From Phanerochaete sordida (lineage: Eukaryota > Basidiomycota > Agaricomycetes > Polyporales > Phanerochaetaceae): a stretch of 64,000 bases of DNA. Below are positions 218-44,560 of the stretch, piece after piece. Every line of letters begins with the position of its first letter. Positions within the stretch are counted from its first letter, which is position 1. The notes below the pieces were generated by a model. It saw only the letters and a program-made list of their open reading frames with translations. It had not been told where the DNA came from and searched no databases. The position numbers and the translations under genes are program-made. The DNA is taken from assembly GCA_019973155.2 (NCBI GenBank), contig BPQB01000002.1, forward strand, positions 868,001-932,000, written 5' to 3'.

Positions 218-1986
218 TCATAGCACGAACTCGTGTGCCGACGCCTAACGGCACAAATAAGCCACTGAGTATGGGTTATCGACGAGACGCAGAGGAACTT
301 ACATTTTTACAGAGCGATCCAAACTGATGGTGCTGCTTATCCCTGACTTTCCTCGACTGTGACCTGGTCCACGGTCTCTTGCTGGGGTCTTGAATGTATT
401 TGCTCCGGACAGCGGCGATCCTCAGCTCTGCCGTCTTCGTCCTGAAAACAAAGCTATCAGTAGACGCCCTGTCCGCATTTACTCGGGAGGTGAGACCGAC
501 TGGAGATCCTGCATGAGTTGGCCGACGTTGGGCCTCTGGTTCTCCTTCGTTCCCCGCAGAATGTCGAGGAAGACCTGACGGAACTTGCATCATCAACCCA
601 CCGTATATACCACGTTCGACATCAAAACGCACAGATAGCATGGTATTATCACGCCCCCAAGCGCGCTGCGAGTCCATGGCAGAAGAGATAGACAGCTGTA
701 CGGTGGGGCGCGTGAGCAAGGAGAGCCTGTCGACGAGAATCGGACGCACGACTTCTGGCAGCGCCTGTATAGGTGACTGTAGTTCTAGCTGCGTCGGCGA
801 AGCATATCTCAAACCTTCCGAGAAGCTGTCTGCTGGTAACCATAGCGTAGACAGGAACTGCGGGCGCCCTGTAGGCGAGATGAGCTGTGTCGCGGTGCTT
901 TCGAGGCGAGTGTTTGTACGCCGCTTGATAGAGGGGGTGCAAACGAACTTGCTCTCGGTGCGGATGGTGGGCAGCGCCGCTTGAGTCAGGGCGGCGCGAG
1001 AGGCGCGTCGTGACGAGGCCTTGATGGGACGCCTGCAAGAATTGCCCGGTGGGTTGGCAACGAGGTCGAGGTCCCAACCAGAGCCTAGCCGCGACTTGCC
1101 AGACATTTGTCGGTCAGTGAAGTGTCTCAGCTTCCAGTGGTAATCCAAGTCTAGCATAGTCCCTGAGTGACAAGTGTCGAAGATGGCCTTCCCACCCCTT
1201 GAGCGGCTGCCTCACCCTCGCGAGGACGTGGACAGCTCACCACTAGATGGGCACCGGAAGGCAACTTGTCAACAAGCCTCGCTCTGAGGTACTGAAGTAG
1301 ACCGCGATCAGTCGTGTACATGGAGCAGGACATTGACGGGCATACGTTGTCTGTGATGACCCCTTCGAGCTTCTTCCTGAGCGGGCTTTCCTCCGGTATA
1401 TTGTCTGGATCCAGCGGGTAATTATCATCATCTACCGGCTCGCCGTGATGCCCATCGAGAAGGATGACTGGCTGGACGTGAGTCAGTGCTGAGGAGACAT
1501 TAGCGGAAATCCTTGCCTTCGTCCATGAAATCGTCTTCCGTGCCCGTACGATTCACCACCTGGTATCCGTGGCCTGCGACTACATATCTTGAGTTTCGTG
1601 ACTTGATACAGATGTTGAGTTCAAGCCTTACAGAAGAAGACGCGTCGATCCCCAGCCCTCACGCCGTCCATGAACCGGTCGATGGCGGAGATCTGTACAT
1701 CACTCGTGAGTCAACGGTATGCAGCACAGTCAGAGGTACGACGTACAATGTTGAATCTCGTAGGCCGCCTGCTCTCGTCTTCTGCGTCATCAGTGAGGAC
1801 AGCGACGTTCTCTTCCCTGTATCTCTCCTTCTCGACAAGGAACTCCTTCAACAAACCAACATCCCTCCTTGGCGTCGCAAGCCGGCCCACAGGCGGCTTC
1901 ACCGGGTTGTCATAGCCTACACCGATGAGCAGGGCTTTGTCCCTCGCACGATTGGGACGGGAAGCGGGCGAGCAACTGCAGAGCAT
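218..1986 (-). CDS. Caspase-like (metacaspase-type) peptidase, copy A
   Basis: Predicted cysteine peptidase of the caspase fold (clan CD, family C14), 443 residues in nine exons: 1747-1986, 1632-1692, 1517-1579, 1346-1467, 1241-1291, 633-1187, 501-574, 303-441 and 218-244. The first strand and helix carry DKALLIGVGY. The catalytic His is His104 in AGHGYQ, followed by GTEDD and the DEVILLD stretch that lines the S1 pocket in metacaspases. The catalytic Cys is Cys185 in DTCHSGT. No zinc-finger or Q/N-rich prodomain precedes the peptidase domain, unlike classical type I metacaspases. The third intron starts with GC (GCAAGG) instead of GT. The start is chosen because the spacing from Met to DKALLIG matches copy B. 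This is the last gene of the minus-strand array. Both dyad residues are present, so activity is expected but not shown. Confidence 0.8.
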
Positions 1987-2665
1987 CGTGGGCTACAAGT
2001 CAGCGACGAGAGCCCATGGCGGGTTGTGGTCCCACTATATAGCGACATGACGTAGGTTCTGCCAAGTGTGAGAACGGCGCGTATCCCTGTGCGATGTCCA
2101 CCGCTGGGTGGGGTACGGTCCGGAGAGGCGGTGTCGGACTCGGCGGTCGCGCGGCGCCGCGCGGGGCGACGCTTCTGCTGGAGTCCTCGTATGAGGGTTC
2201 TGTACGCGGCATGGCTGGCATCCGGTTGCTAGCTCGCGTTTTGCACGGCTATATTGCGATGTGGGTGTGACAAGATTGGACTCGAAGGCACTGCGTGGGG
2301 GTGAAGACGAAGGACGGCTCTGCAGGGAAGCGCGGGAATTGTTTGGCCGTGTTTGTTCGCGGCTTTGCTGAGGCGGGTCCAGGGAACAAGGACTTGACAG
2401 AGACATGCATCGCCAACAACAAGCTCGCAACGATGAAGGAGTCGTGCATACAGGGCCCTCGCGTGTATATTACATAGTGACTAACCTACATGTTTGATAC
2501 AATGTGCCATTGAGGCTACATGTGAGTACGAATAGAGTAATGTTTGGAGAAATGACAGATATCGGTGCAGTTGCATCATGAAAGGGCCGGCCGGTTGCAT
2601 AATCTGACAGCGTCCGCGCAGCACCATTGAGTCGCATAATGTTCGCAAAGACATTCAAGCCTTGT
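1987..2665. other. Intergenic, between caspase-like genes A and B
   Basis: It should hold the promoter of copy A and the terminator of copy B. No convincing coding exon or repeat is visible. Open frames here lack introns and homology to the neighbours. Confidence 0.5.
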
Positions 2666-4404
2666 TTATAGCTTGAACTCGCTGAGGTGAGCCTATCATG
2701 TTACGATTAGTAGGGGAGACAAGTGTAAGAGACATGAGCGACGTACCCAAGGGGACATGGACCCAAACTGATGAGACTGCGCATGCTGAGTCTTCGCTAC
2801 CTGCTTGTCATTCAAACGCTTCTTGCCGCAGGCCCCGCGAGATTGATCCACCAAGGTGACCCTGATATCCCTCGTCCTCAACCTACGCACCGTTGTGGTC
2901 AGCCTTGTGGGGCAGGTATTAAAATTCTAATGCATTAGACTTACTGGACTCGCTCCATGACCTTGATCATCTTGGGTCGCGATCCTTCCTTGGACTCCTT
3001 GAGGATGTCGAGCAAAACCTAGTCCAGCGCTACGTCAGTACATCTTTGAAAGGCTTAGCGAACGACACTTACCGAGAGCATGGTATCCTCGAAAGCCCAC
3101 GCAAGCTCCTTGTCCATGGCGGATGAAATCGAGACCTGAAACAACACATGATAAGCACAGGCATAGAGCGACAACGATGACGCGTACCACTTCCGCGACA
3201 ACAGGTCCGGGCCCCCGCGGGAACGCTGGCACTAGCTGCGGCATGGATACTGGCGAGAGACATTGTGGCTGCTCGGACACCGGCGAGAGACATCGCGGCG
3301 TCTCGGACACCGGCGAAAGACACGGCAGACGCTCCGCAGCGTCGGCGAGCCATGTTTTACAGTCCGACAACTCGATGACGGGCTTGGCCACAGGCGCGTC
3401 GACCCGTGCACTGGACCGCCTCTTGGCAATGAGCAGGAACTTGCCGTACGCGCGTGCGACGAGCCACATGTGACGGCCCGAAGCCCCGACGAGCGCGTAG
3501 CCGGAGCCCGACCGCGACCGTGACGCGCGACGGGGGAGGCGCTGCCACTTCCAGTGATGGTCGAGGTCCAGCATCGTCCCCGAGTGACAAGTGTCGAAGA
3601 TAGCCTGTGGCATTGGGTCAGCGATTGTCGGGCATGAGGCAGGGACGCCAAAGCGGCTCACCACAAGACGCGCTCCTGGGGGCAAGCGGTCGACGAGCTT
3701 TTCCCTGAGGTACTAAAGCGAACGTTAGTTGGTCTCATGTAACGCGAACAGTCTGAGGATGCGTACGTTGTCCGTGATGATACCTTCCAGCTTCTTCTTG
3801 TCGGGGTCGCCCTCCTTCAACATGTAAGGGTCGAGCGTCTTCCGGGTGCCAGTGCAGACCGGCTCGCCATAAGCGGGATCGACCAGGATGACTGCGCGAG
3901 GGTCAGCTGGCGACGGACACGAACAGCGCGGTGCACTTGCCTTCATCCCTGTTGTCGTCCTCCGTTCCGGTGCGACTGACGATCTGGTAGCCATGCCCCG
4001 CGACTGCGCGGGTCAGTGTGGGGGATCCGCGATAGGGTTCACTAGCACTCACAGAAGAACACGCGGCGGTCACCGGGCTGCACGTCGTGCATGAAGTCTT
4101 CGATTGCCGCCACCTGCACGCGCGACGTCAGGCCTCTGAGAACAAGTGAACTGAAAGCGTGACGCACTATGTTCGCCCGCGCCTTCGTCGGGCGCATGCG
4201 CTCATCCGCCGGGTCGTCCGTGATGACCGTGATATTCTCCTCGAGGTAGCCTTCGTACGCGATGAGGAAGAGCTTCAGCAGAACGACATCCCTGTGCGGG
4301 GTCTTGAGGGCCCCCACAGTACTCTGGGGGCCGCCGTACTGGAGTCCGATGAGGAGAGCCTTATCCCTGGAGCGGTCGCGGACGGAGGAAGGTATGGGGC
4401 TCAT
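2666..4404 (-). CDS. Caspase-like (metacaspase-type) peptidase, copy B
   Basis: Paralog of copy A, 417 residues in ten exons: 4168-4404, 4053-4113, 3941-4003, 3767-3891, 3662-3712, 3188-3604, 3073-3135, 2945-3018, 2747-2882 and 2666-2692. The dyad is His103 (AGHGYQ) and Cys185 (DTCHSGT). Exons 2, 3 and 5 have exactly the same lengths as in copy A (61, 63 and 51 nt), and both share the tail motif QFGS followed by a 27-nt last exon. Intron 1 (4114-4167, 54 nt) is free of stops and a multiple of three, so its retention would add 18 residues without a frameshift. Intron 3 has a GC donor (GCAAGT). An extra intron at 3136-3187 is absent from copy A. Residues after the peptidase core carry a threefold CLSPVS repeat. 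Confidence 0.82.
3247..3335. repeat. Three tandem ~30-bp units inside caspase-like gene B
   Basis: Three imperfect copies on the + strand, each containing ACCGGCGAGAGACA or a close variant (ACTGGCGAGAGACA, ACCGGCGAAAGACA). On the minus strand each encodes a ten-residue unit with CLSPVS. Copies A and C lack them. Confidence 0.8.
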
Positions 4405-5430: not shown

Positions 5431-7451
5431 TCAAAGCTCAAGGATTTCGTCCAGAGTAGTATCAGGCGCGGTAAAGGTCCTACCCTGGGCGTCGCGGTCC
5501 AGCATCTTCACCTTCAAGGTGGAGACCTGTAGCGCCATCGTCAGCAAAGAGCCCTTGCTTTGCTCAGAATGCGACTAACCTGTGGTTTTTGTCTCTTCTC
5601 AAGCTTTGGTATTATCTTCCTGATGTCCAATCCAGGCCCTTTCCGCTTGCCGTTGATGACCTTGCAGCGCTGCTTGTACATCTCGTCGCTGAGAGAGGAT
5701 AAGTTCCGGCGTACGCGGTGGAATTCGTAGGCGGCTTACCAGACCGTTTTGTGAATGGTATTTGCGCTCCTAGTACGTTGTGTCGCAGGCTCTATGAATC
5801 TGGTTAATACTCAGATAACCGCTAGTGTTCAAGTAACACGACATGCCTGATCTGAGGCAGTCCGTCATGATCTTGGAAGGGTCAATAGCAGGTAAGGAAT
5901 AGTCGCAGTACTCCACGAAGGCGGTGAGCATACCTGTATCATGGATTGACAAGGCCCTCCGGCCATCGTTAGCTGGGAATCTTCGGAGGACGAGAACGAC
6001 ACCTGCAGCGCATTCAGCACTCGTAGCCCCGACACTCGGAATTTACCCACCACGCAGGCCAGCTCCGGATTGCTGCGCATCCGGTATCCGTCCGGCGAGT
6101 GCTTTGGGTCCCAGGTGCCCTTGCGCGCGTTCGTGTTGTTGCCCGCGTGGGCGGGCGGGGCCCCTCCGGGCCCGCTGTCGCGCCGCGCGGGTTTCCAGGG
6201 CAGTCGCTTCACCGTCGACGGCAGCGCGTGATGCACGAGGACGACGGGCGCGACGACTGCGACCGTCATGCGCCGGATCTGCCTGCGGATGAACCGGCGC
6301 GCCTTGCCGATGCACAGGACTCGGGAGACGTCTGCAGAGGTCGTGAAGCTGTGGACTTGGCAGCAGGAAAATTGACTCTACCTCTCATGGCAGTCCCGCA
6401 GCCATGGACGTCTTCCGCGTTGAGTTCTTTCGCGTTGACCTCTTCTTGTTTGCTCGAGTCTAAGTCTAGAGCGTGTAGGTGTCAGCATACTGTTCCTATG
6501 AGACTGAATAGCGGCACATACCCAGCAGCGTCCCCGAATGGCACGTCTCAACGAATGCCTGGCACAATTCGTTCATATTTTGTTATCGCAGACGATATCC
6601 TGACATACCACGAGCTGGGAGCCTCGCGGCATAGCGTCGACTAATTCCTTGCGGAACTCCTGAGGGTCAAGATGAGGAGCTACATAAGCGACACCTCCAA
6701 AGGCAAACGTACATTGTCCACGACGAGGCCCTTCAGTACCTTATAGTACTCATGGTCTTTGGTGAGACGGCTGATGTCAGGAGGTGTTTCTACAAGCGGA
6801 GAGCCCTCTGGCGAGATGTCAGGGAAGCCATCGTTGCCCGCGGCCAGGACGACTAAGAGACATATTCAGCACCAGAAGCAGAGGACCTTGCTACTGCACT
6901 CACCCTCGTCGCGCTTGTCATCTTCCGTGCCGTCCGTGTTGATCAACTGTGCACCGTGACCAGCGACTGCGATCGCAAGTTATTCAGTCGTCTGCCAGGG
7001 AATCAGGGAACATTGGCACTTGCCTACCAGGACTCGGCGATCGCCCTCCCGGATGTCCTCAACAAGTCGGCGAAATTCGCGCAACTACATGAACCCATGC
7101 GTAAATGTCAGGTCGACGGGTAGCCGCAGAAAGACTACTCACGATCGTCTGTCGGTTTGGCATGTGAAGCTTGTAGAGGTCGTCGTCCATCCCGGGGGAT
7201 CGCCCGTCACCGTAGATGTCGCCTACACCGTCATCCAACAACACGATGATATTGTCGGGCTCATAGAGCTCGTGCTCCACCAAGTACTTCCTGAACGCGA
7301 GGATGTCGTTGTGGATGCCCGTAAGCGGGGGGACGCGTTCCGGGTTGCCGTGGACTTGGTACTCGAGGCCGATAAGCAACGCCTTGTCGCGGTGCCGGCG
7401 CCCGCGCAGAATGTCCTCGGAGGCCTGACGAAAATGTGGGAGAGGAGCCAT
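5431..7451 (-). CDS. Caspase-like (metacaspase-type) peptidase, copy C
   Basis: Third caspase-fold paralog, about 470 residues over roughly twelve exons. Exon 1 is 7143-7451. Exons 2 and 3 are again 61 and 63 nt. The dyad is His127 in AGHGAQ and Cys in ETCHSGT. The second intron uses a GC donor (GCAAGT); a GT alternative would break the frame. Its loop after the first domain strand is longer than in A and B and contains GDIYGDGRSPGMDDD. The C-terminal half is different from A and B: a region with RRFIRRQIRRMTV, then DTGMLTAFVEYCD, which aligns weakly with the matching part of A and B. The final basic segment (KVINGKRKGPGLDIRK) replaces the QFGS tail. The stop at 5431-5433 follows DEILEL. The exon joins after the Cys exon are my inference from phase and branch-point-like CTAAC/CTGA sequences. 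Confidence 0.72.
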
Positions 7452-8224: not shown

Positions 8225-10503
8225 TCAGCTCCGTCCCAGCCCCGCCCTCGCCGTGGCGAGGCGCTTTGTATTCTTCGCTAGAACCTCCTCCGCGATCGCT
8301 TCCCCCGCCGGTGCCGCAGACGCAGCCTCCTGCGCCACCAGGGCGTACACCTCCGCGGCCCCGAAATCCCGCAGGCGGTTGGACATCTCCGCGGTGTTCC
8401 CGAGGCAGAGCACGAGCTCCTTGCGCATCGCGGCGACCTTCGCGTGGAAGCGCCCCCGGGTCGCGCCGTCGAGCGCGACGGCGGCCGCGGCGAGCTCCGC
8501 CAGCTTGCGGTAGTCGCTCCGCGCGGAGTACGGCGCGCTACGCACGTCCTTGCGCACCTTGTCGCGCTGGAACGCCGCGCGTCGCGCGACGACGGCGAGG
8601 ATCTTCTGAATGACCGGCGCGCTCAGGATCTGCTGCACCTGCGCCAGGTCTGTGCCCTCGGCTGTGCCGGAGGGGAGCTCGGTCCACTTCGCCGCGGCCT
8701 CTAGCACGCCGCGTTGGGCGAGCACCGCCAGGAGCCGGAGAAGCGTCGTCGAGGCCGTGACGGCTGCCTCTGGGACCTGACAAGAGGCGTCGGCGGTGAC
8801 ACCAACCTCCTCGATGTGCGCCGAAGGCTGGGAGAGCCGAAAGACACCTGCGCTCCATTCCCCTGCTTCACATATGTCGCTGTAGTATTCCGGCTCTTTG
8901 CCCTCCCGGGACACTGGAGCTGCCGTCTTTGTTGCTAGATATGCAAGTCTTAAGAAAGAGATGAGCTGGGACGTGGGCGCGTTCTGCAAGTATGTTACAC
9001 CGGTAATGACGGTGAGGAGGTGCAGTCGTGTTCGTCCTACACATTCGACGGTCAATTCACGTCTTGTCAGGCTAATACTCATTTTTTGCAGACTTACCCC
9101 GATTTCCATAGATATCAGCGATGGCATATATCTCGGGCGCGACACCATACCACTCTGTTTCCACTCGGCGGAGCTGGCTAAGAAATATGATCAGAGTCTT
9201 TATAGAGAGCAGCGCAACCCAATGCCCACCGCTCTATCTGACTATATTGCTCTGCGTCTAGCTTCTTCCAAACCGCGAGAATTTTGGATACCCATGACGG
9301 TCGTGAAGTAAAGGCTTCAAGCGAGGCGAGTGCACTCTGCCACTCTCTATCGAAGTCTTGTTTGGGATTGCCGGTCAATGGAAGGTCCAACCCGGGGACC
9401 GCGTTCAGGGGGAATTGGACCAGCAGTGCCAGTGCTTCGGACGCTAGTAGTTTATTCTAGACATCAGCTCCATGTGCCATCTAAACCGACCTGAGGCTTA
9501 CCAAGCTCGTCTATGGCAACCTCAGGGTGAGAGTCCGGCCGAGGCCTCACTGTGATGTCGAGCAACAAGTCCGGCAATTCAGGGCTTGTTCTCAGAATGT
9601 CGAGAACGTATTCCCTGGAAACAGGAGGAGTCCTGCAGAGAAGCGCCTGTACAGAATACAGGCACAACTCTTGGGTAAGTCCGAACCACCGCTTACCGTA
9701 CTTCGTTGCTCGGGCAGGCGTCATCTACCTGCATGTAAGCTGCTGGGCAGCACACAACTGTGGCGATCTACCTGGTGTTTCAGGACCATACGCTCCGCTT
9801 GCCATGCCCTCGAGGGGTCAGCGAGCTCCTTGGAATAGCCGTCCACGCCGTCAAGCACATGCCGGCAGAGTAACTCCAGGATAGCGCCGCAGTTCGCAGC
9901 GTCGAGCTTGCTGCCGTAGCCGAGGTCGCAGCAGAGCATGCGAACCAGGCGGGAGCCATGATACCGATCCAGGCAGAGGTCGTGGCTCTGCATCATCTGT
10001 ATGCCATGCACTTAGATTCTGCGTGACACAGCGCTGCGAGCATACTCACGTGGAGTGCCATGTTGAGCGCATCGCACGCGCCCGCACGATCGAGGAGCTC
10101 GCCGCGCTCCTGTGCGTTCGCCATGTTGACGAGCTGCTGGAGTGTCTCGATGGCGACCGCGATCATGGTGGGGGTCTCGGCGCGGGGCTGCTGCGTGAGC
10201 GTGAGCAGCGCCTCGACGATGCCTGCGCGTATGCACGTCTTCATGAACACGTCCCAGCCGGACGCGAGGTCCATCTGCTTGCATCGCGCGATGCAACGGG
10301 CGTCGATAGGCACCTAGAGCACTGCATGAACTTGGGTGTGAGCGGACGCAGGCGGTCGGAGGTGGACTTACCAGGTATGCTTCGACCCAGGTGCCGTCTG
10401 TCGCTGCATCCTGCATTTTCGCGCATATCTTCGGAAGGTATCGCTCGAGGATTTCCTGGCGCATCGAGTAGATCATGCCTGCATTCGCGAGTGTGAGCTC
10501 CAT
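8225..10503 (-). CDS. Unrecognised helical (solenoid-like) protein, copy E1
   Basis: One of four paralogs of about 660 residues, function unknown. The model is based on alignment with the plus-strand copy E4. The N-terminus MELTLANAG leads to a helix with YLPKICAKM and WVEAYLV. Then come exons with GWDVFMKTCIRAG, AQERGELLDRAGACDALN, SHDLCLDRYHGSRL, KYGKRWFGLTQELC, DFDREWQSALASLE and a long last exon ending at 8225. The last exon has PVIQKILAVVARRAAFQRD and ELVLCLGNTAEMSNRLRD, which look like a TPR or armadillo-type helical hairpin. No zinc finger, membrane segment or signal peptide is seen. Exon borders fall at the same residues as in the other copies. There is no sign of a frameshift or premature stop in the parts I read. 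Confidence 0.65.
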
Positions 10504-10787: not shown

Positions 10788-13090
10788 TCAGCCACGCGCC
10801 AAACCCGCCCTCGCAGTGCCCAAGCGGTTTGTATTCTTCGTCAAAGTATCCTTCAAGATGCCGGCATCCGCGGGCGCATCCGTCGCGGCTTGCTGCGCGG
10901 CGAGCGCATACGCCTCCGCGACGCTGAAGTTCCGTAGACGGTTCGACACCTCCGCCGTGTTTCCGAGGCAGACGACGAGCTCCTTCCACGCACCGACGGC
11001 CTTCGCGTGAAATCGTCCCCGTGTGGCGTGGTCGAAGTGGACGACTGCCGTCGCGAGCTCTACGATCTTTCGGTACCCGGCCCGTGCAGTGTAGGGCAGT
11101 AGTGTCACCGCCGTGCGGGTTACGTCTCGCTGGGCAGTGGCTCCTTTGATCGTAGAGGCCAAAAGCTCCTCAATGGTCGACGCACTGAGGATCTCCTTCA
11201 CCTGCTCCAGGTCAACGCCGTCGCAGGGCCAGGCCGAGGCGTCGTCCAGTGCTCCGCGTTGCGCTAGGACGGTCAGGAGACGGAAGAGCGCGGTCGGAGC
11301 GACGATTCGAGTCTGCGGCGCATGGCAGGTGCCGTCGAGGGTCACGCCAGCATTCATCGTCACTCCCTCGCGGTGTGGATGCCGAAAGAGTTCGACAGTG
11401 TACTCAGCAACCCGAAGTACCTCTCGAAAGTGGGTTTCAAGAGGATGATCTAAGTAGGTAGCTGGGCCTGCATTTTTCGTGGCGAGGTATGCCATCGGAA
11501 GACATGAGATGAGTTCGGAGGTCGGAGCGCTGGAGACGTAAGATATTCCGGTAAGGATGGCGAGTAGGTGGATTCGCGTCCGTCCTGCGTGCAGTAATAT
11601 GAATATCAGAGGGCAGAGGCTGCGTTGAAAGATTCGTTTGCATACCTCTGATTTGGACAATCTTATACATATCCTGCTTTATTTGTGAAGGAAGGCCGAA
11701 CCAGTCAGATTGCACTTTCGAGACTTGGCTAAGTACAAGGGTCAGCGATGAGACTACATGATTGTGAGTAATCCTACCGTATGATGTCGTCATACTTCTC
11801 CATATCTAACTTGTTGCAGATGGCACGAATCTTGGGCAGCCGCGAGGGCTGAGAAATAAAGATATGCAACGCTTCAATCGAAGCTTGCCATTCCGCCTCC
11901 AGTACAAGTTTCTGCTCCCCGGAAAACGGAAGGTCCAGGCCTGGTATAGAATCCCAAGGTGGTCGGAGTAGCTGCACCAATGTCTCGCAGGCTGACGAAG
12001 GGTGAGTCAGAAGACAGCGACATAAGGACTCGAAATAGTGCGCATCCAGCTCACCCATCTCATCATGGGCCACGTCCGGATGCCAGTCAGGTCGAGGTAG
12101 CTGTGCGACCTCAAGCAGCAAGTCGAGTATATCAGGGGTTGACTTCAGGATGTCCAAGGCATAACGCCGGGATACGGGTGGAATTCTGGTGAGAAGCGAC
12201 TGCACGCCCCACATACAGTGATTTTGAGTGTACGCAAACCACCGCTTGCCAAATTTGGGCGCTCTGGTCGTATTCATCTGCGCGAGTGTGAGCACCATTG
12301 TCGCGCGAGGACGAATGTTGGTAGCTATAGGTACCTTCTGATGGATTGACTCTGCCATATATCCGGCTTGCCATATTTTTGTGGGATCGAGGAGTTCCTG
12401 AGCGTAACTGTCCGTCTTCTCGAGCGCGTGTCGACACAGCAGCACCATGATAGCTCCACATTCCGGCGCAGCGAGTTTGGTACCGTAACCCAGCTCATTG
12501 AGCAGGGTCGTCAGGAGTCGTGCACCGTGGTACCAGTTGTAACATAAATCGTACGTCTGCATCATCTACAGACGTTGACGGTATGAATGTCTAACGTCGT
12601 CCGAGAGAATGAGGAAAGACTCACGCGCAGAGACAGTCCCATCGCGTCACACGCAACCGCGCGGTCAAGCAAGTTACGACGCTCGCTCGCATTAGCCACA
12701 GACGAAAGAGCTTGTATGGTTTCGAAGGTAAGTGCGAGCAGCTGTCCTGCGTCATCGCGGGGATGATGCAAGAGGGTGAGCAAGGTCTCGAGGACGCCCG
12801 CTTGTACGCATGTTGTCGCGAAGACGTCCCAGCCAGACCCGGGACCCTTTCTCTGCAAGAGCTCCGCAAAGGTGACATTGATGGCCGCCTACAAATCAGG
12901 AAAGATATGTATAGAAATGTAGCACAGAGGTTGCTGTACCCACAAGGTATGCTCGAATCCATATACCAGTCGTAGCCGTGTCCCTAATTCGAGGGAATAT
13001 CTCCGCAAGATAGCGCACAAGCACCGGGGGAGGCTGTTCCATAATGGCCAACGCACGCTCAGGAGAGAGGTCCATGATGGCAAGGGGCAA
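10788..13090 (-). CDS. Unrecognised helical (solenoid-like) protein, copy E2
   Basis: Second copy of the ~660-residue family. The start at 13090 (MPLAIMDLSPERA) is preferred over an internal Met because copy E3 also begins MPLA at the same distance from the helix YLAEIFPRIRD. Exons follow the family order: GSGWDVFATTCVQAG, ASERRNLLDRAVACDA, TYDLCYNWYHGARL, KFGKRWFAYTQNHC, PRPDWHPDVAHDEMG, EAEWQASIEALHIF, then a terminal exon to 10788 with ELVVCLGNTAEVSNRLRN and the same TNRLGTARAGLARG end as E1. It shares more of the C-terminal sequence with E1 than with E3, so E1 and E2 look like the younger pair. The spacing to E1 is 284 bp. The function is not known. Repeated hydrophobic heptads suggest an alpha solenoid that would bind proteins (inference). 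Confidence 0.65.
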
Positions 13091-13486
13091 GTCTCGGCAT
13101 GGCGCGTCCTGGTTAGTCTCGGTAAATATACGAAACCACTAGTGCAATCTGAGATGCAGCTGTGTTTGCACTTGTTTGGGCCAGCCACGCGACGACCGCA
13201 CCACGGGGACCTAGAGAGAGATACTGCAGAGCAGAGGTGGCAGCGCAATATTATCCCTACGTCAACAGTATGTGTGAGGTATAAGCATACCATAGAGCAC
13301 ATCTACAAATACATATCAGCGTCAAATTTGTCAGTACGAGCGACACCGGGACAGCGCGACGGAACAAGGGATCAATGCTAGAACACCGCCAGCTACCGTC
13401 CACAGAGAAGGCGACCAAGAAGAAGGCGTCCGCGTTGCATCATGGAGGAGAGCGCTAGGACTTTCGGGACTGAAAAATGGCTATCG
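13091..13486. other. Intergenic, between E2 and E3
   Basis: 396 bp, presumably the E2 promoter and E3 terminator. No other feature is visible. Confidence 0.4.
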
Positions 13487-15833
13487 TCAGCTCAAACTGT
13501 GCCACTGCACCCTGGTCGCGGCACACACCTCGACTGCGACTGCCTTCCTTGCTGCGTCCAACCGTCTTTGGTTCTTCTCAATGGTACTCGGCTCTATCCC
13601 TTCCTCTTTGTCCGCCTTGCGTCCCAGCGCGTCCGCAGCGACGGCAAAGCGAAGTGCAGCAAGGTGGTCATCCGCACGTTTCGACATCTCCGCGGCATTG
13701 CCCAGCGAGAGCACCAATTCCTTCTGCGCGCCACGCACGTAAGACTTGAAGCGGCCCCCGCACGCCTCGTCAAATGTGAGAAGCGCCGCGGCTAGCTCGA
13801 TGGGCGGGAGGTATTTCGCGCGGGCCATGTGCGCCGCGTCCGGCCGCGGGCTGTTGACCCACTCGCGCGCCTTTTCGCGCGCGATGGCAACGCGGCGCAC
13901 CGCGAGCGGGAGCAGCTTCTGGATGACCGCCGCGCTCGTTATCTGTTGCACCTGCCGCAGCTCCGTGCCTGGGAGTGCGTCGGCCGGGAGGGAGGTCCAA
14001 GTGGGGATCGCGTCGAGGGTGCCGCGCCGCGCGAGCACGGTCAGGATGCGGAGCAGCGCCACAGGGCCAGCTATCGCCTGGTCGGGGACGATGCACGCCG
14101 GGTCGAGGGGGAGGTCCATGACGTTCGCCCAGGTGGCTTTGCGGTGCGCGTCTGTCGTGCGTTCGCCGTGCTCGCACGTCTCGCGGATGCCGCGGGGAGT
14201 GAAGTTCTCGAGGGACTTCTTGAGAGAACCCTGGCTGGCGAGATATGCGGGACGGAGGAAAGAGACGAGTTCACCATCCGTGATATTGTCCAAATGGGTG
14301 ACTGCAGCAACCAGACGAAGTATCGCGTTTCTCGATTGGCCTAGAGAACTCTAATGAATAGGTGATATCTTTCGGAAACGGGGTACGTACCTCGCGAGTC
14401 ATAGATCATCTTGAGGGTGTTGTCATCAGGAGCAACACCATGGTAATCGCTGACAACGCGAGATATTTTCCTAGAGAGGTCATCAGGGCTCCCTGCACAG
14501 TCGCGCGAAGGCATGCATGGCAATACCTCTGCACGTCAGGGAAAGTCTCGTCATCAAGACGCTTAAACACAGCCAATATGCGCTCTTTCCACAGCGGACG
14601 GGAGGTGAGGATCTTTAGAGCTTCCACTGTCTCACCATATTCGAATTCCAGGTCGTACTTGATCTCTTTGGGCACAGGAGTCTTCACGCCTGCGATGTAT
14701 TCACGTGGGAATTGAAATAGCAGCGCGAGTGTCTCAGAGGCTATAGAATATCATGTCAGCATATACGGGCAAACGTCCAAGAGGTAGCCCACCTAGCTGG
14801 TCTATCTGTACCTCAGGGTATGCTGCCGGCCGAGGCAGGGCTGCAACATCGAGGAGGGCGTCCAATACAGCCGGACGTGCCTTGAGGACGTCCAAGAAGT
14901 ACTCGCTCGAGTGGAGAGGGTAACCACGAGACAGAGCACCATATGCAGCAAACATAGCGAATTCTTGTGTCATGCCGTACCACCTGGTACCGTATGAGAC
15001 TCCCATCTCGCGCGGGACCTGAGTTCACGTCCGCATGAATCGTGAGAAGTAGCAGATACCTCTGCAGCACGGAACGCACCAGTAAACGGTTGGTCATGAT
15101 TCCCACCTGCCAATTCTCCCCTGGCCGGCGCACTTGCTCCATCCACCGCGATTCGTCATCCCTCGTCCAGATAGCCAGGAACTCGACCAGCTCTGCGGCT
15201 TTCTCAGGGGACAGGATCTCAGGAAGGAACATGTCTCCAGCTATGGTTCGCAGGACGCGCATGGCAATGTACTTGTGCAGATTGTGCTTGTAGTCCTTGA
15301 TGATCTGTGGTGAACACACGCTGAGCTCATGTGCATGTATGCGCGCGTACAGTGGGCTGGGACGAACCCTAATCAGCGTGTCGAGTGCGTTGCATTTCAC
15401 GATTCGTTCAAAGAGCTTGCGGCGCTGTTCAAGTGAAGCCACAGACGAGAGGTAGCACAGAGAATCAAGCGCGTTGAATACCGCGATCCAGCACGCCTCG
15501 TTCACCGGCTGCCCTGCGAGCTCCATGAACGTCTCCCAAACCCCCGCATCAACGCACGCTTCCTCGAAGTCGTCCCATCCCCTTGGAACGCCAAACGATG
15601 CCATAAAATATTGCAAAAACTTCTGTCTCAGCCATGCCTAGATGTGCCTGTCAGCGTAGTCTTCGCGTAGACACAAGCGCGATGAAACGTACAACATAGT
15701 CCTGAACCCAGCTGCCTTGCTGCTCAGATGGTTTGCGAAGTCTCCTGAAGATCTCCGGTAGGTAGTGCTTGACCTCGTGTACCGGCAGGCAGTAGATGTC
15801 GCGGGCATTCTCGGACGTGAGGGCGAGGGGCAT
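13487..15833 (-). CDS. Unrecognised helical (solenoid-like) protein, copy E3
   Basis: Third minus-strand copy of the family. It begins MPLALTSENARDIY at 15833 and continues with HYLPEIFRRLRKP and WVQDYVV. Middle exons carry GWDDFEEACVDAGVWE, LEQRRKLFERIVKCNALD, YGTRWYGMTQEFAMF and RPAAYPEVQIDQLG. The last exon (13487-about 14330) has ELVLSLGNAAEMSKRADD. It is the most divergent of the array copies, with a different C-terminal tail (EVCAATRVQWHSLS) and a shorter linker. It lies directly downstream of acyltransferase F1 with a gap of 203 bp, and the plus-strand F4-E4 pair has the same order with a gap of 214 bp. This conserved neighbourhood is the best clue to function. The sequence around its start codon is duplicated at 17995-18040. 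Confidence 0.65.
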
Positions 15834-16036
15834 CGTCGATGTCGGAGGAGAAGATGTCGCGTCCGGCGCTTCCCAGGAGAGTAATTTACTCGCGTTGTGG
15901 TCGCGTGTTTGGCACGCGCGATGGTGGGCGCATCAAAACAGCGAACAGGCCCGGAGACACAACATGGAAGGGCCGAAATCCGACCTTGTGCATTATTTCT
16001 CTATTTGACAAAAATAATCTATACACCCCACGTCCT

Positions 16037-17696
16037 TCACTGTGCCGGAACCCACTCGACATCTCCCGACATGCCCAAATCGTGAGCCTGGGCCGCGAAC
16101 AAATCCATGAAAGTCCCTCGGGATTCCTTGTGGATGTAAAAGACGATCTCGACATCGTCTTTCGGCCGCACCTGCCAGGTCCCGTCCGGGAGACGCGTTG
16201 GGTTGGGTTGAAACATCTTGATAAACCGAGGCTCGTCGAGTATGGTATGGTAGAAGCGTGTCTGCCCCGGGAATCCAAAGTGCGCGGACGTCCAATCGAA
16301 TCTGAGAGAGAGTATGAGGATGTATCGGCAAAGACGCGATGGAATATGCTTACCGCCACGTTGAATTGACAACCATGTGTCCCGGGCGCGGGATAAAGTC
16401 TTGAGCGAGCTCCGCGTTAATAGCTTGGATGGCTAGCGGTTCTTGCGCAGCGTCGTACGCAGCAGCATACGCAGGATCGCGGCACTGAACGAGCGACTGA
16501 CGGATTCGCAGCGCAATGCTGAAGATTGTCTCCTTGTCAAAGTCATCTGCCGCCTTCGTTACCGCCAACATGAGCGCGTTGCCCGCGCTGTTCTTCGACC
16601 GAGGCGGGATGCCACGCGCCTGAAAAAGGCGTTAGTTCAGGCAGACCGTTACGCTATGGTGACACTGACCATGAAGAGGGTGCTAATGTGCTGAATAGGC
16701 GGCGCCTCCGGGTCTGCCTTCGACAGGCAATACGCAACAATTGCGCTGAGAACGTCCTGCCTGGACAGTATTGGCGGGTTTGATTCCGGGCATTGCGCGA
16801 GCACACCTTTGTGCAGCTGCGCAATCTGCTCCGCCCGAAGGCGAAGGTCCACGCGTACAGGCTTCTTGCGACCGGGCTCCATGTGCGGTGGGACCTCACG
16901 CAGAGGGTACAAGTACTTGTAGTGGTAGGACGGGATATCGTTGTGATCCGCTGGGTTGAAAGGGTACCGTGGAGGCGCGGTAAAGGAAGGAGGGGGGTCT
17001 AGAGGCTCTAGGCCTTGATAGTTCTGAGAGAGGAGGCGGAGGAACATGAGCACAGCGAAGCCATCACCTGTGAACGCGGTCAGCCGACATTCCGCAGTAA
17101 AGGACAGACCGCGTACCAACGAGGTGCGAGGAGCACAAGCCGATAGAGGTGTTGCCTGTCTTCTTGAAACGGATGATGGTCGCCTTGAGGAGCGGTTCGT
17201 CGTTATCGAAGTCCAGGTACTTTACAGGCTTGACGGACTGCGTGAAAGGGAAGGGGCTCTGTATGACAGTGTTCGCGGGCACCTCGGTTTCTGCGTCGCT
17301 CTCCATAACAGTGACGGGAACGCCCTGGTTCCCCAGACTGATCTGTATCGTCAATGCTACGTCAGCTTCTCTGCAACCCGCGCGACATATATATGCTCAC
17401 CGTCCATGGGTCTTTTGGGTCTCGTGGGCGTATAACACGGCCGGCGTGTGCGGGGTATGCCTGAAGAGTCCTTGCGAGCGCGTCGTTGAATCGATCAATG
17501 TCGATGTCTCCTGGTACGATGTGCGCGGTGTCGACCTGCAAGGAAAGGTACGCTGCTTTCAGCTTCGTGGCCGCGTGCGAGATATGAGGTTCCGTCTCAC
17601 CTTAAGACCAATGAAGTAGTCTCGAGGTTGCAGCACGTAGTGCGACTGTCCCTGGAGGACAGTCGGCTCTCTCGCCTTGACTGTGTAGGTTTCCAT
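16037..17696 (-). CDS. HXXXD-type (BAHD-like) acyltransferase, copy F1
   Basis: Predicted CoA-dependent O- or N-acyltransferase of the fungal transferase family (PF02458-like). It has the six-exon layout worked out for F4 and about 460-465 residues. The start at 17696 gives METYTVKAREPTVLQGQ, an N-terminus shared by all copies. The catalytic motif HXXXD is HLVGD, split by an intron after HLV-G. The usual second motif DFGWG is degenerate and appears as HFGFPG in the stretch DWTSAHFGFPGQTRFYHT. Other conserved blocks are LLSQNYQGLEPLDPP, SRQDVLSAIVAYCLSKAD and PAYAAAYDAAQEPLA. The protein ends EWVPAQ. No signal peptide or membrane segment is seen, so a cytosolic enzyme is likely. Substrate unknown. 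F1 and F2 are a tandem duplicate pair with near-identical intron placement. Confidence 0.8.
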
Positions 17697-18203: not shown

Positions 18204-19855
18204 TCACTGTGCAGGCACCCACTCGACATCTCCCGACATACCCAGATTACGCACCTGCCTCGTGAAAAAGTCCATGAAAGCTACCTGTAGCTCCTTGTGA
18301 ATGTAGAACACAATCTCAATGTCGTCTTTTGGCCGTGCTTCCCAACTTCCATCTGGTAGACGAGTTGGGTTGGGATGGAACATCTTAAGGAACTGGGGCT
18401 CGTCGAGGATAGTGTGGTAGAACCGTGTTTGGCCCGGAAAACCGAAATGCGCAGAGGTCCAATCAAATCTGAGGGGACGTTCAAGAAGTGTCGGTCAAAA
18501 TACAAGGGGATGCTCACCGCCACGTCGAGTTGACGACCATGTAGCCCGGGCGCTGAACGAAGTCCTGAGCCAGTTCCGCGTTGATAGCCTGGATGGCCAG
18601 CGGTTCGTGCGCGGCATCGTATGCAGCCGCATATGCAGGGTCACGGCACTGTATGAGCGATTCGCGGATGCGCAGCGCAATGCTAAAGATCGTCTCCTTG
18701 TCGAAGTCCTCCGCGGCCTTCGTCACCGCCCACATAATCGCGTTGCCGGCGCTGTTCTTCGACCGAGGCGGGATACCACGGGTCTGGAAAGGCGTCAGCA
18801 CAGATGGATCGTGGTGCGGCAAAGACACAAACCATGACGACGTTGCTAATGTGCTGGATAGGCGGTGCTTCTGGGTCCGTCTTCGACAGACAGTACGCGA
18901 TCAACGCGGCGAGGACGTCCTGCCTGGACAGTATCGGCGGGCTCGGTTCTGGGCATTGCGCAAGCACGCCTTTGTGCAGCTGCGTAATCTGCTCCGCCTG
19001 GAGGCGTATGTCCACGCGCACAGGCTTCTGGCGTCCCGGTTCCGCGTGCGGCGGTACGCCGCGTAGAGGATATAAGTACTTGTAGTCCTGGCATGGGATA
19101 TCGTCATAGTCTGCAGCATTGAAGGGGTACCGTGGAGGCGCAGTATAGGACAGTGGTGGGTCCAGCGGTTCTAAGCCCTGATAGTGCTGGGAGAGAAGGC
19201 GAAGGAAAGCGAGCACGACAAATCCGTCGCCTGTCGACGCGGTCAGCAGACATCCCGCATTCTGGGACAGACCGCGTACCAATAAGATGCGACGAGGACA
19301 AACCGATAGAGGTGCTGCCCGTCTTCCTGAAGCGGATGATGGTCGCCTTAAGAAGCGGCTCATCATTATTGAAGTCCAGGTATTTCATGTACTTGACGGG
19401 CTGCGTAAAAGTGAACGGGTTCTGTATGATGGTGTTCGCTGGCACTTCGGTCTCCGCGTCGCTCTCCATGACAATGACGGGGACGCCTTGGTTTCCGAGA
19501 CTGACCTGCATCGAGACGCTGCCTCAGTTTATATACTCTCCACGATGTTTACACTGGCTTACCGTCCATGAATCTTTGGGGTTCCGTGGGCGAACAACAC
19601 GGCCAGCGTGTATGGGGTTCGCCTGCAGGGTCTTCGCAAGCGCCTCATTGAATCTGTCTATGTCTATATCGCCAGGTACGACATGCGCAGTGTCGACCTG
19701 CCAGGCAACGTTTTTTGCTCTGAGGATCAGATTGCGCGAGCGGTGAGGCGTCGACTCACCTTGAAGCCAATCAGCAGGTCCTCGGGTCGCAGCACGTAGT
19801 GCGACTGTCCGTGGAGGACGGTCGGCTCCCTCGCCTTCACTGTATGCGTCGTCAT
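18204..19855 (-). CDS. HXXXD-type (BAHD-like) acyltransferase, copy F2
   Basis: Acyltransferase paralog with the same intron pattern as F1. The start at 19855 gives MTTHTVKAREPTVLHGQ and the stop is 18204-18206 after EWVPAQ. The active-site motif is HLIGD, with the intron after HLI-G and the next exon starting GCGACGGATTTG. Conserved blocks are LLSQHYQGLEPLDPP, SRQDVLAALIAYCLSKTD, DPAYAAAYDAAHEPLA and DWTSAHFGF. F2 and F1 share the EWVPAQ end and flanking sequence on both sides, so they arose by a direct tandem duplication of about 2.16 kb. Enzyme activity is predicted because His and Asp of the motif are kept. The acyl donor and acceptor cannot be read from the sequence. Confidence 0.8.
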
Positions 19856-23590: not shown

Positions 23591-24669
23591 CTACGATGGC
23601 GCTAGGCGCCGGCGCTCGAGGATGAGCGCAGAGATGAGGATATCGTCGAGGAAGGCCTGTCCCGCTGGGAACACCTTCAGCGTCGCAGCAGGCGCGGGGC
23701 GGCCATCTGCTCGCGGAACGAGGGGTGGTGGGGTGAATGTCGCTAGGAAGTGTGACGAATTGCCGACGGACTTGGTTCCCAGGTAGCACTGCGGCCGCGG
23801 TATTAGCTTCAGAACACGGACGAGAGAGGGCGCCGCACGTATTTCACGGGGTTATCAAACGCCCATGACAAGTGCTTCGACGGATCGGTCTCGAACTTCC
23901 ATTGCCAAGTACGCTGGGAGGCTGTGAGCTGCGGGCAGACGCGAGTGATGAGGCTGAGCACGCACCGACATACGGTTCCCGCCCTTCACGAGCACGGTCT
24001 CGATAACCCGCTCGACCCCGTTCATAGTTATGGTACCTTTCCGTAATGTCATCCCCATTCTGACGAGACATGAGGCCGAGAGAGCAAGGAAGACATGGGT
24101 AGGACGTACTCGAACTGGCCGACTTCCTCGCCTTCCACCGTGTCTCCGCGTGTGATGACTGTGATGTAAGACGAGGGGATAAAGCAGTTCATGCGCACAG
24201 CAATGTGGTAGAGTGGTATTGAGGCCGTCTGGCTGCGGACGACCATGGAATTGAACGAATGTAGGACGGGTGCGAAGACGTAGATGACAGGGCGGACAAC
24301 ATGTGGGCTGGTATTATCTTCGTAACTGAGAATGGGTGTGAACGACCTCTTCATGAGTAGCCAGGTACAACACACCTTGGTAATGCGTCGTGAGATACTT
24401 GTCCGCTGGTTATTGAAGAAGGAGGATCGTATGCAGAGCTGGCGGTGTCCGAGCCTCTCGATCCTCGGCTTATCGAGAGCTGGCTAGGACTTGAGGTGTT
24501 TCTCAACTCCTCTGTAGATTGGAAGTGTCTGTGGCACCGAAGATGATTGCAGTGGAGTTGTGGGGTATGGCTGAGCGACTCACTGTGTGCCCGGAGAGAC
24601 CTCGCCATTCCGCTCGTTATGCTCTGCGACACCTGCGGCCTCGTCCCATTCAGACTCGAGTATAATCAT
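23591..24669 (-). CDS. DUF6593-like protein, copy 1
   Basis: Protein with the basidiomycete DUF6593-type fold, function unknown. Exons read from the sequence include YEDNTSPHVVRPVIYVFAP through EEVGQFE, then MGMTLRKGTITMNGVERVIE ending KGGN, then a QWKFETDPSKHLSWAFDN exon, and a last exon ending ILISALILERRRLAPS with the stop at 23591-23593. The joins use GTACGT, GTATGT and GTGCGG donors and keep frame. The C-terminal pattern, an aliphatic strand followed by a basic end, matches the gene at 50945-52009 (ILISALIVERKLTLSF), and both have the strand VGxFE just before the same intron. The start at 24669 (MIILESEWD) is the least certain part, because the first intron was not fixed. Confidence 0.6.
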
Positions 24670-38159: not shown

Positions 38160-40049
38160 ATGCCCGTCGCTCAATGCTCCTGCACACCCGGCCAGCCGTG
38201 CCCCATGCCTCACACTCCTCCGCCCTTCGTCGTGGAAGGCCGACGACGAGTACGCGCCCTGGCCATTGGCATCGAATACAAGCCCAGCCGAGCCGGGGTC
38301 GGGGAACTCAACTACATCATTCGCGATTTGGAGAACTTCAGGGACTACGTCGTCAGAGAGGTGGGCTGGCCTGCGGAGGCAGTCACAATCATGCACGACG
38401 GCAACGACAATCCCTCGCTCGAGCCTACGCGGGACAACATCGTACGCCACGGCTCTCCTCCGAGTCCATGTGTATCCACAAAGCTAACCATCATGTGCAG
38501 CTAACACAGATCGACTTATTCGTGAAGGATGTACTGCCGGGAGACTACCTCATCTTCCTGCGTACGACATCATTCCTCCTCTTATCACTACATCCGAGAA
38601 ACAAACCTCGAGCATAGTGCTAGGTCATGGTTGCCAAACGGTCAACAAGACCGGAACTGAGGACGATAACATGGATGAAGGTATGTCCAGCTCGTTATAA
38701 ACTCTTTGAGAACAATTTCTGATGTTCTACATTAGCGTTTCTAGCTAGCAATCACGCAGGCTGGCCAACAACATCGCCGAATTCGACGGACAAGCTAAAT
38801 ACACCCGGCCCTGACGATCGACGACGTGGTAGTCCCCACTGCGATACGTATCGTGGCATCGTTCTAGATAATGTATGTTCAAGGCTCCCAACGCGACTAT
38901 GCAGCCCATTGACATCCTTGGATGCGGCAGGAGCTCAGAGAACGGCTCGTGAACCCCCTGCCTGCCGGCGCCGAACTCTTGGTAAGTAACATCGCCAGAC
39001 TACATGACCGTCTCTGACGACCTTCGGCACCCAGGCATTCATCGAGACGTGTCACTCAGGCACGATGCTCGGTGGGTCCCACCCTGCGTCGCTCACGTTC
39101 CACACGCTCATATGCGTAGACCTGCAAAGCAAGCGCTGGAAGCGCGATCCTTTTACTGAGGTGCTAGCAAGTACGTTCCGGGGTTAGGTCGCCCACACTC
39201 CCATGGCTGACTATCTCTGTCAGAGCTATCGGCGACATACAGCCAATTCGTCGACGGCATCCGCAGGACGCGCTTCTCGCGGCTGACGTCCCTGGACTTC
39301 ACCGCCGATCCGATGGACATGATCACGAAGCCTGCGAAGGTCCGCGCCCGGTCCTCTGCACAGAAGCGCGGCGAGAGCTACGACCAGAACTATTTCCTGA
39401 AGAGCAAGCGCGATTACGATTTTGGGGACCCGTGGGCGGTGAGCTTGGACGCAGCTGTGCAGCGCTGCGATGTGTGCTGACGTGTACCAGGTGTCGTTCT
39501 CGGCTACGAAGGACGGAAAAGCATCGATGAACAACGAGCACACCATGATCAGCGTGCGTGGCCCGCCTCCTGCGCAGACGAGCTGACCGCTGACTGACGC
39601 CTTCTATCGTAGGTCGTCATCGAGTGTCTGCGAGCTCGTAAGTCCGTTCTCAACTCGGCAATGCTGTGCTGACTGGTGTCTCCCAGAACGCAATGCCCGA
39701 CGCCAGACTACCGTCCTTCAACTCAAGAAGTTGGTCTTGTCAGTCTCATGTCTCATGTGCCAGACGAGAGCGGCGGAGCTGACATCCACCCAGCGACCGA
39801 CTCGTCGACCTGCGTCTCCAGATGCTCATTGCCGGCAATGGCGGCGTCGAAGAACCTAAGTGGGAGAAGCAATTGAAGAAGAGGCTTGAGCCGCAGGTGA
39901 TTCAGGATTGTTCCCTACCTTCTACGCCGTCGCTGATGTCAAACATCCTAGGTCACTGCGCTGTACCCTGATGTGAGTTCGTATGATTACCTTCTGACCT
40001 GCTGCTGACCTCCGCGTAGGCTCTGCGGTATACAGCTATTCAGATTTAA
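38160..40049 (+). CDS. Caspase-like (metacaspase-type) peptidase, copy D
   Basis: 393 residues in 14 exons: 38160-38441, 38501-38561, 38618-38680, 38736-38872, 38931-38981, 39035-39071, 39120-39170, 39224-39438, 39491-39553, 39613-39637, 39687-39729, 39794-39896, 39952-39972 and 40020-40049. The dyad is His118 in LGHGCQ and Cys204 in ETCHSGT, with GTEDD between. Exons 2, 3 and 5 have the same lengths (61, 63, 51 nt) as in A-C. All introns start with GT. The N-terminus has an unusual Cys/Pro cluster (CSCTPGQPCPMP). It is closest to copy C at the Cys motif (FIETCHSGT/FVETCHSGT). The exon 11/12 join is the least certain. It is the first gene of the plus-strand triad, 370 bp ahead of acyltransferase F4. 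Confidence 0.8.
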
Positions 40050-42082: not shown

Positions 42083-42296
42083 GGGATTAAAGGTAGCATA
42101 TATGGGGGTGAACTGTCAAAAATAGGACTTACCCGTGCATGTTGTGCTCGGAGGCTTGCTCGATGTTTTGATGCGCCCTCCCGCCTTGCGAAGATTTTAC
42201 GTAAGTAATAGAGTGGCGCCGAGACCAAATACGTCACAACAACGCGAACGGGCCGACTCTCCTTTCTTGGTTCGTGGTTCTGCACACACCACCAAG

Positions 42297-44560
42297 ATGG
42301 AGCTGACCACCGCCAACGCATGGAAAATCTATGCCCTCGGTCCCAGCCAGCTCAAGCCGTACCTGCCTCGAATATTCGACAGGCTCAAGGTGCCCGTGGA
42401 CGATGGCATCTGGGTCGAGACATACGTCGTACGGACAGTTTTCTAGCGCCTTTGTGCTAGCCATGCTCACTGGCCTATCTCAGGACCAATTGGGCAAGAA
42501 GTTCGCGGAAAGTGTGAAAGTAGCCGGCTCACTTTCGGGCTGGGACAGCGTCATGAAAGTCTGCGTAGAGGCAGGCGTCTTCGAAACCATGTTTTCGCTC
42601 GTGCAGCACCCACGTGACGACCTCGAGACTGCGGTCATCCACGCGATTGACTGCCTGCACCATCTGGTCACGAAAGCGAACCAGGCTGAGCGGAGTATTT
42701 TGCTCAATCACGCCGTCGGCTGCGACGCTCTGAACGTTTGCCTTCGTGTAAGTGTGTTTTCGCACGAGTCACGGAGTGATTCACGTCCTTGCACTGCAGA
42801 TCTTGAGAGAACACGACCTCTGTATACACAGGTACTCTGCAGGTCGCATGCTGCGCACGTTATGCTCGGACCTATGTTATGGGACCAAGCTCAGTGCAGC
42901 AGCTACTGCAACTGCCATCGAATCCCTGTGTCGACACGTACTCGACGACATCCACAGCTATTCAAGAGAGCTCATAGATCCAGACAAGGCGTGGCAGGCC
43001 TATCGTATGACTCAACATGCTGTAGTGAGTTGATTCTCATGTTTCCTAGTGGCTCTTGCTCATGCTAGCGCAGTATACACCGGAGATGGCGTCCAAATAT
43101 GGCCTACGGTGGTTTGGACTGACGCAGGAGTTGTGCATGTGGTCGATACATGGCATGATATGTCTCTTCCCCGTGCCCACTAAACAGCACATCTCCGACA
43201 TCGTACATTCCAAACCTTCGATCCTCGACCTGCTTTTGGACATCGCGTCGGTGCCAAGACCTCCGTGGTACCCAGAAACCACCGTAGATCAGATAGGTAT
43301 GGGCTAAATCAGATTTAGAAATGGCTGTAGACTCACTCTGAGGTAAAGCAACGGAAATTTTGGCGTTGATGCTGCAACTCCCCCTCACCATAATTCCGGG
43401 CTTGGAGATTCCACTCGACGAGAAATCGAAAGCATCAATCACTGATGACTGGAATGCCGTCATCTCTGTTGCAGATCTCCTCCTGGAGAGACCACAGTGG
43501 CTCCCCAAAATCCTCAAGACTTGGAGGCGACTTGATAAAGAGCGGCTGTCGGAACTTCACGAGTAAGTCTTGTAGTCCGCGGTTACTGGTCGTAGATTCT
43601 CATATCATGGACAGACTTCTGTTCAAAGTTCATTCAGAATGGTACGGCGTGGAGCCAGATATCGATACGATGACAAGCATATACGAGTATCGAGGTGGGT
43701 CCTTGCTTTCCACAGCGTAATATTCGCTAATGCGGCGCTCAGGGCACATGCGCGTGGACATTCTGTCCATCATTACGACCCTAACCTTTGCGGACATCGA
43801 CGATGTCGACCTCATCTCCCTTCTGCGTCTGACCTACGAGGCGACCAAGAAAGCCGCCCCAACCTCGCGCGACGCCGAGCCAACGATCAACACCAAGGAG
43901 GACGTGCTCTACGAGAAGATCGAGCAGACCGTCAGCGTCTTCCGCGTCCCGATGGCCGTCGCGGACATCGAGGAGCCAGGCGTGACCTGCGACGCCGTCG
44001 GCCAAATAGCGCCGCAGGCCGTGAGCGCACCCGTCGCGCTCCTGCGCCTGCTCACGCTGCTCGCGTCGCACGGCGTGCTCGACGCCGCGCCGACCTGGGC
44101 CGCGCTTCCGGCGGGCACTGCAGACGGCACGCACCTCGTGCACGTGCGCCAGATCCTCGCCGACGACACACTCGGGCGCACGCTCGCCGTGCTCGTCCGG
44201 CGTCTCGCGGCGCAGCGCGCGCACGGCCGCGAGAGCGTGCGCGAAGCGCCGTACACCGCGCGCGCGGAGTACCGCCAGGCCGCGCAGCTCGCGGCGGGCC
44301 TCGTTGCGTTCGACGGCGCGACGCACGGCCGCTGGGCGCCGCAGCTCGTCGGCGTGCGCCGCGAGCTCGTGCTCTGCCTCGGCAACGCCGCCGAGATGTC
44401 GAACCGCGTGAAGGACTACGGCGCCGCGGTCGTGTTTGCCAGTGCCGCGCTGGACGTGGCGGGCAAGGCCCCGCGGAACGAGGGCATCACGCCTGACGTA
44501 GTGGAGAAGAACGTGCGGCGGCTCGAGCTGGCAAGAGCAAGCCTCGAGCGAGCTCCGTAG
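42297..44560 (+). CDS. Unrecognised helical (solenoid-like) protein, copy E4
   Basis: 658 residues in seven exons: 42297-42428, 42484-42747, 42800-43021, 43050-43296, 43349-43562, 43615-43694 and 43743-44560. It begins MELTTANAWKIYALG. Long amphipathic helices dominate, for example GWDSVMKVCVEAGVFETMF, CIHRYSAGRMLRTLC and WLPKILKTWRRLDKERL. The last exon, very GC-rich at third positions, carries LGRTLAVLVRRLAAQRA and ELVLCLGNAAEMSNRVKD, then KNVRRLELARASLERAP. The intron after exon 3 is short, 28 nt as drawn, which is below the usual limit, so that join may be off by an alternative site. No known domain. It is the last gene of the triad, 214 bp after F4. It should be soluble and cytosolic. 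Confidence 0.68.

Follow-up and report, generated by a model that had tools for sequence, protein, structure and literature searches.

The question raised by this locus of Phanerochaete sordida is whether genes that lie side by side also work together. The stretch analysed (hereafter the window), 64,000 nucleotides at positions 868001-932000 of contig C2 in an assembly of 40.8 Mb and 222 contigs, carries four copies each of metacaspase-like C14 peptidases (family A), armadillo-like helical proteins (family B) and HXXXD transferases (family C), besides genes of the DUF6593 family (D). The published YK-624 draft has 41.2 Mb in 341 contigs larger than 2,000 bases and 17,108 genes (PMC8530024), and the 222-contig assembly probably represents a different version; the same paper describes transformation of P. 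sordida as established. A first-pass annotation had proposed that the three families form one functional system. We consider it more probable, at roughly 0.6, that the locus is a lineage-specific, duplication-prone neighbourhood in which separate Polyporales families have grown by local duplication, one set being inverted. In such a neighbourhood several families (A, B, C and D) would expand separately, each protein would act through the chemistry of its own fold, and joint action of A, B and C would not be obligatory.

Gene layout and probable local duplication

The families were recovered by all-against-all comparison of the open reading frames together with spliced models from a purpose-written gene finder, and their paralogy is beyond chance, with frame-to-frame matches reaching E = 4e-90. 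Both approaches reproduced the twelve-gene, three-family layout given by the first-pass annotation, positions included. On the minus strand the genes are grouped by family from left to right. The peptidases come first, with A1 at 218..1986 (database protein P0005; PF00656 E 1e-12), A2 at 2666..4404 (P0004) and A3 at 5431..7451 (model only). They are followed by the models of B1 at 8225..10503, which probably misses some exon sequence, B2 at 10788..13075 and B3 at 13455..15833; no database protein for A3, B1, B2 or B3 was among the matches obtained. The transferases close the array, with C1 at 16037..17696 (model identical to P0085, PsYK624_014820; PF02458 E 1.1e-14), C2 at about 18204..19855 (P0086, PsYK624_014830, from which the 3' end is taken, our own model extending to 17965) and C3 at 21487..23144 (P0087 is a shorter database model). 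About 15 kb beyond this array, in the opposite orientation, lies a plus-strand set of A4 (about 38205..40049; P0006, somewhat longer at both ends), C4 (40420..42082; model identical to P0089, PsYK624_014930) and B4 (42297..44560; P0003, PsYK624_014940, 651 amino acids).

A fifth B copy, B5, was found just left of the window (window -2396 to -128), so that family B comprises five copies, and a fifth, complete C copy, C5, is located on contig C4 (619735-621403). In single-exon searches of the genome, B exons matched only at this locus (5/5 and 12/12 places), as did A exons (4/4 and 2/2 places), and seven of the nine places matched by a C exon are at this locus, the other two being in C5. No remnant copies outside the gene models were detected at E 1e-3 in 154 kb.

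The explanation by separate local duplications rests on the grouping by family, on nucleotide similarity between copies, on gene trees that do not match, on A and C being found apart and on the presence of other local arrays in the genome. Protein identity among copies is 30-51% in A, 33-62% in B and 65-81% in C, and at the nucleotide level C1 and C2 are 76.7% identical over 1,778 bases, while C3 and C4, which are inverted relative to each other, reach 70.9%. In the C tree, C1-C5 group together as a clade of P. sordida, with the relative P0088 outside it (support 97/96). In the A tree, A2 joins a P. carnosa protein, weakly (84/85); for A3 and A4 the branches are very long and the placement is uncertain. 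We counted this mismatch between the A and C trees in favour of separately expanding families. All 13 paralogue pairs tested gave ratios of nonsynonymous to synonymous substitution (dN/dS) of 0.088-0.297, the B pairs being calculated on partly incomplete models; the copies of A, B and C are under purifying selection.

Moreover, C14 genes and a C gene were found elsewhere in the genome without matches to the other families, which argues against a joint system. C5 has an acyl-CoA-synthetase-like gene on one side and kinase-like genes on the other (named from their translations), and the 40 kb inspected there showed no A or B model. With P0033 a second C14 array was detected 100-155 kb to the right of the locus (contig C2:1032649-1086550), where the B and C searches matched nothing. 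As for other local arrays, DUF6593 genes form one on contig C8, and the kinase genes beside C5 form another (contig C4, 619735-641999 with C5 included), which we take to be FunK1-like.

Splicing, active sites and a linker motif

Reading the active sites depends on correct splicing. Gene models were built with GC-AG introns allowed and sister genes as guides. GC-donor introns lie beside the exon of the catalytic His in A1 (1468-1516), A2 (3892-3940) and A3 (6967-7023), and gene finding restricted to GT donors drops that exon in all three. The exon joins at the active sites (His or Cys in A1-A3, HXXXD in C2 and C4) were missed by the initial models. Those of A1, A2 and A4 are the same in the database proteins P0005, P0004 and P0006. 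Our own models of B4 (567 amino acids) and B5 skip exon sequence present in the database proteins. Single exons gave no match to Pfam, for which spliced or database proteins were required. Whole-genome Pfam scans are blind to split exons and were not used as copy counts: the PF00656 scan missed the A copies of the window itself and matched two other places, and the PF02458 scan matched none.

In the spliced models, and in the database proteins available for A1, A2 and A4, the catalytic His and Cys are kept in all four A copies, within G-H-G and [DE]-T-C-H-S-G, as the first-pass annotation had stated. The residue before T-C is Asp in A1 and A2 and Glu in A3 and A4 (ETCHSG). A2, which alone was modelled with AlphaFold, has a caspase core with p20 and p10 parts mostly at a predicted local distance difference test score (pLDDT) above 90, joined by a disordered linker of about 110 residues. 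Its best matches in the PDB are metacaspases both by fold and by profile, the nearest fold being that of the Candida glabrata metacaspase (E 5.4e-15; template modelling score 0.74 by target). PADLOC and NCBIfam profiles gave nothing beyond weak caspase matches. An acidic E-D-D..D-E loop is invariant across the four copies and aligns with the loop of the yeast protein, and the acidic residue ahead of the catalytic Cys motif is presumably the S1-pocket residue. Metacaspases have an acidic S1 pocket and cleave after Arg or Lys, most of them require calcium, and their roles extend from cell death to survival (PMC13304501). We read A as a metacaspase-like Cys/His peptidase in which the disordered linker bridges p20 and p10, probably activated by Ca2+, processing itself and cleaving after Arg or Lys. 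We know of no role for most basidiomycete C14 peptidases; if some of them had a stable genomic partner, this would offer a way to approach their function.

The linker otherwise aligns poorly among Agaricomycete C14 peptidases, with the exception of a short motif, C-x-S-P. From the top of 81 matches 22 rows were picked (range P0004-P0026), of which 21 have linkers of at least 40 residues and one has a linker too short for use. C-x-S-P is present in 15 of the 21 linkers, whereas shuffling of each linker gives an expectation of 0.76; for plain S-P the figures are 19 of 21 and 14.9. In the aligned column of S286 of P0004, Ser occupies all 20 of the 20 rows that are not gapped, and in 18 of them Pro comes next. 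Because these sequences share ancestry, the counts speak of conservation and not of independent events. In A2 a 30-base tandem repeat (3238-3322) brings the motif to three copies; A1 has R-Y-A-S-P, A4 has the Ser without the Pro, and A3 has no C-x-S-P. The motif could be a proline-directed phosphorylation or docking site. No paper on such a motif was found, by its terms, in the open-access literature searched. The motif lends itself to direct tests, irrespective of any joint function of the genes.

For family B, the proteins are predicted to form a solenoid of helical repeats, and the fold search matches armadillo proteins. A profile match to engineered armadillo chains was obtained (E 4e-10, residues 56-100), although no stretch passes alone. 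In Pfam there was no match for P0001 or P0002, and P0003 gave matches at chance level only. By these structural comparisons B is probably an armadillo-like solenoid, which would bind a partner.

In family C, H-x-x-x-D is kept in C1-C5, and H150 and D154 are invariant in all 14 aligned proteins. The first-pass statement that all four transferases of the window retain HXXXD is thus confirmed on spliced models, those of C1 and C4 being identical to database proteins; the database model of C5, P0090, lacks the N-terminal part. The nearest solved structures are acyl-CoA-dependent hydroxycinnamoyl transferases, by profile match to plant structures of this enzyme (HCT). DFGWG is the textbook BAHD motif, and in its stead the C-terminal part of the C proteins has SxHFG; they are therefore called BAHD-like here and not members of BAHD. 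In such an enzyme the His of HXXXD would serve in acyl transfer, with CoA as the probable donor and a small molecule as the probable acceptor.

A possible joint system

Several observations weigh against separate local duplication. A4, C4 and B4 lie directly next to one another and point the same way, in contrast to the minus-strand genes, which are grouped by family. The synonymous distances of the duplicates, at 0.9-1.8 and near saturation, overlap among families, and the duplications may accordingly date from about the same time; for this reason the differing protein identities are not taken as proof of different duplication times. The B tree, in which B3 has the longest of the five branches, joins B4 and B5 (96/95), yet P0002 is closer to B4 (73% identity) than B5 is (62%), and the split of B4 and B5 may thus be older. 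It must also be taken into account that the searches for relatives need shared five-residue words, and that in the A and B searches only the candidates with most words in common were scored. Absences in other species are consequently soft: with B5 as query, even B1-B3 were not returned, to which it is 36-41% identical, although relatives at 58-72% identity were. Finally, Irpex lacteus (Irpicaceae) has one A match (P0012) and two C matches (P0091 and P0093), all three on a contig of 233,334 bases. The same length in three rows makes this probably one contig; the table has no positions and so gives no distance between A and C. With an Irpex lacteus genome near 45 Mb, such a coincidence would arise by chance about once in 200.

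Of the alternatives, the one that survives best is a single module of cell death or self/non-self defence, in which the armadillo-like protein would sense or scaffold, the peptidase would execute and the acyltransferase would modify a partner or signal, the copies being different specificities. The linkage of the genes, their copy numbers, their kept catalytic residues and the purifying selection on them are in its favour, as is the probably shared Irpex contig. In fungi, about 80% of the genes for gasdermins occur in clusters with those of the proteases that activate them (PMC10197012). The module would work in the manner of these protease-partner micro-clusters, and since such clusters exist in fungi, the idea is not foolish. 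The distribution in relatives is harder to reconcile with it. In four species with a close A match (P. carnosa, Phlebiopsis gigantea, Trametopsis cervina and Irpex lacteus), C was found in one, the first three giving matches to neither C nor B, and B in none. Among seven named taxa with a C match besides P. sordida, A was found in one and not in the other six. The first-pass expectation that the families be neighbours in other genomes, examined in part, is favoured by Irpex lacteus as regards A and C and disfavoured by these other comparisons. Eleven neighbouring models were compared with Pfam. Nine matched a family (DUF6593 twice, DUF6699 twice, GH5, kelch, Rce1, LysM and peroxiredoxin) and two matched none; gasdermin, NLR and HET domains were not seen in these eleven. 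Nor was there a clear common motif in the 350 bases upstream of 13 genes relative to 23 controls: against 60 random splits, the best 6-base word fell at the median and the best 7-base word at about the tenth percentile, and no 8-base word qualified. Metacaspases, besides, are not confined to death, given their pro-survival roles (PMC13304501). We consider this module improbable. What endures of the first-pass proposal, a system of a metacaspase-type peptidase, a modifying enzyme and a helical scaffold, is that the genes are real, linked, intact and expanded, as seen in their layout, their kept catalytic residues and their dN/dS values; its unity is made less likely by the solitary C5, by the second C14 array, where no B or C was matched, and by the soft absences in other species.

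A somewhat more doubtful alternative is that the linkage of A and C is old, perhaps with a function shared with DUF6593, and that B was added only in Phanerochaete. The Irpex contig fits this explanation too, short of giving a distance between A and C, and relatives of B were returned only from P. sordida and from one other contig, of 3,509 bases. Its further support comes from D1 (23591..24669, minus strand), which lies directly upstream of C3 on the same strand and passes the family cut-off of DUF6593 (PF20236), as does the second such gene, D2. In Phlebia brevispora, P0094 is a single gene model in which DUF6593 precedes a C-family transferase, the same order and orientation as D1 and C3. 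When the DUF6593 part of P0094 was compared with the P. sordida genome, D1 was the best match (its two top pieces at 63% and 61%), and the next place outside the locus, on contig C83, reached 39%. At least D is thus a conserved companion of the C locus, and the D-transferase order, matched in another Polyporales family, is a marker with which the locus can be traced across the order. Against an old pair of A and C, the searches gave no A match in P. brevispora or in I. rosettiformis, and no C match in P. carnosa. Taken together, the death or defence module and the A-C pair amount to a minority possibility.

More specifically, the locus might hold a new basidiomycete module of death or recognition, with an armadillo-like sensor-scaffold, a metacaspase-like executioner switched through C-x-S-P (for example by a proline-directed kinase), an acyltransferase marking a partner or signal, and paralogous sets as specificities, but this we regard as a long shot. 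A small-molecule cluster for chemical defence or detoxification, with C decorating a metabolite and A and B as bystanders, would suit the resemblance of C to hydroxycinnamoyl transferases and is nonetheless very unlikely, as C5 sits elsewhere without A or B and the 11 models include no scaffold-building enzyme or P450; within these models the first-pass remark that NACHT, P450, polyketide synthase and peptide synthase are missing is correct.

Other neighbours and known systems

The duplication-prone neighbourhood that we favour holds further genes. D2 (50945..52010, plus strand) lies 6 kb from the plus-strand set; no paper on DUF6593 or on this gene set was found in the open-access literature searched. 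Two DUF6699 genes lie between the two sets, on opposite strands (25527-26255 and 29305-30560). About 6 kb to the left of B5 (window -9522 to -8066) there is a class II peroxidase-like gene, of the manganese peroxidase type by eye, and a predicted protein of 386 amino acids (window -6333 to -4452) contains three repeats of about 100 residues with RDAMGLG or a similar sequence and has no Pfam match. Low-complexity predicted proteins rich in Ser, Pro and His are encoded at 54337-54895 and 63259-64784, and their C-terminal tails are similar by eye.

Compared with the fungal metacaspases (yeast Yca1/Mca1 and Candida glabrata MCA1; PF00656), the A proteins are alike in caspase fold, in the GHG His and [DE]TCHSG Cys and in the acidic loop. 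They differ in starting near the catalytic domain, in occurring as several tandem copies, in the disordered linker of about 110 residues in A2 and in the Glu that replaces Asp ahead of T-C in A3 and A4. Family C resembles the BAHD/HXXXD acyltransferases (PF02458) in HXXXD and in the profile match to HCT, and departs from them in having SxHFG where DFGWG is the textbook motif. The B proteins differ from the armadillo-repeat proteins importin alpha, beta-catenin and Vac8 in having no significant Pfam match. As to the whole locus, the closest comparison is with the protease-gasdermin clusters of fungi, represented by HET-Q1/HET-Q2 and the CHAT proteases. Here, the neighbour is armadillo-like and the protease is a C14 metacaspase-like enzyme rather than S8 or CHAT; what the two have in common is a protease gene beside genes of possible partners, in several copies.

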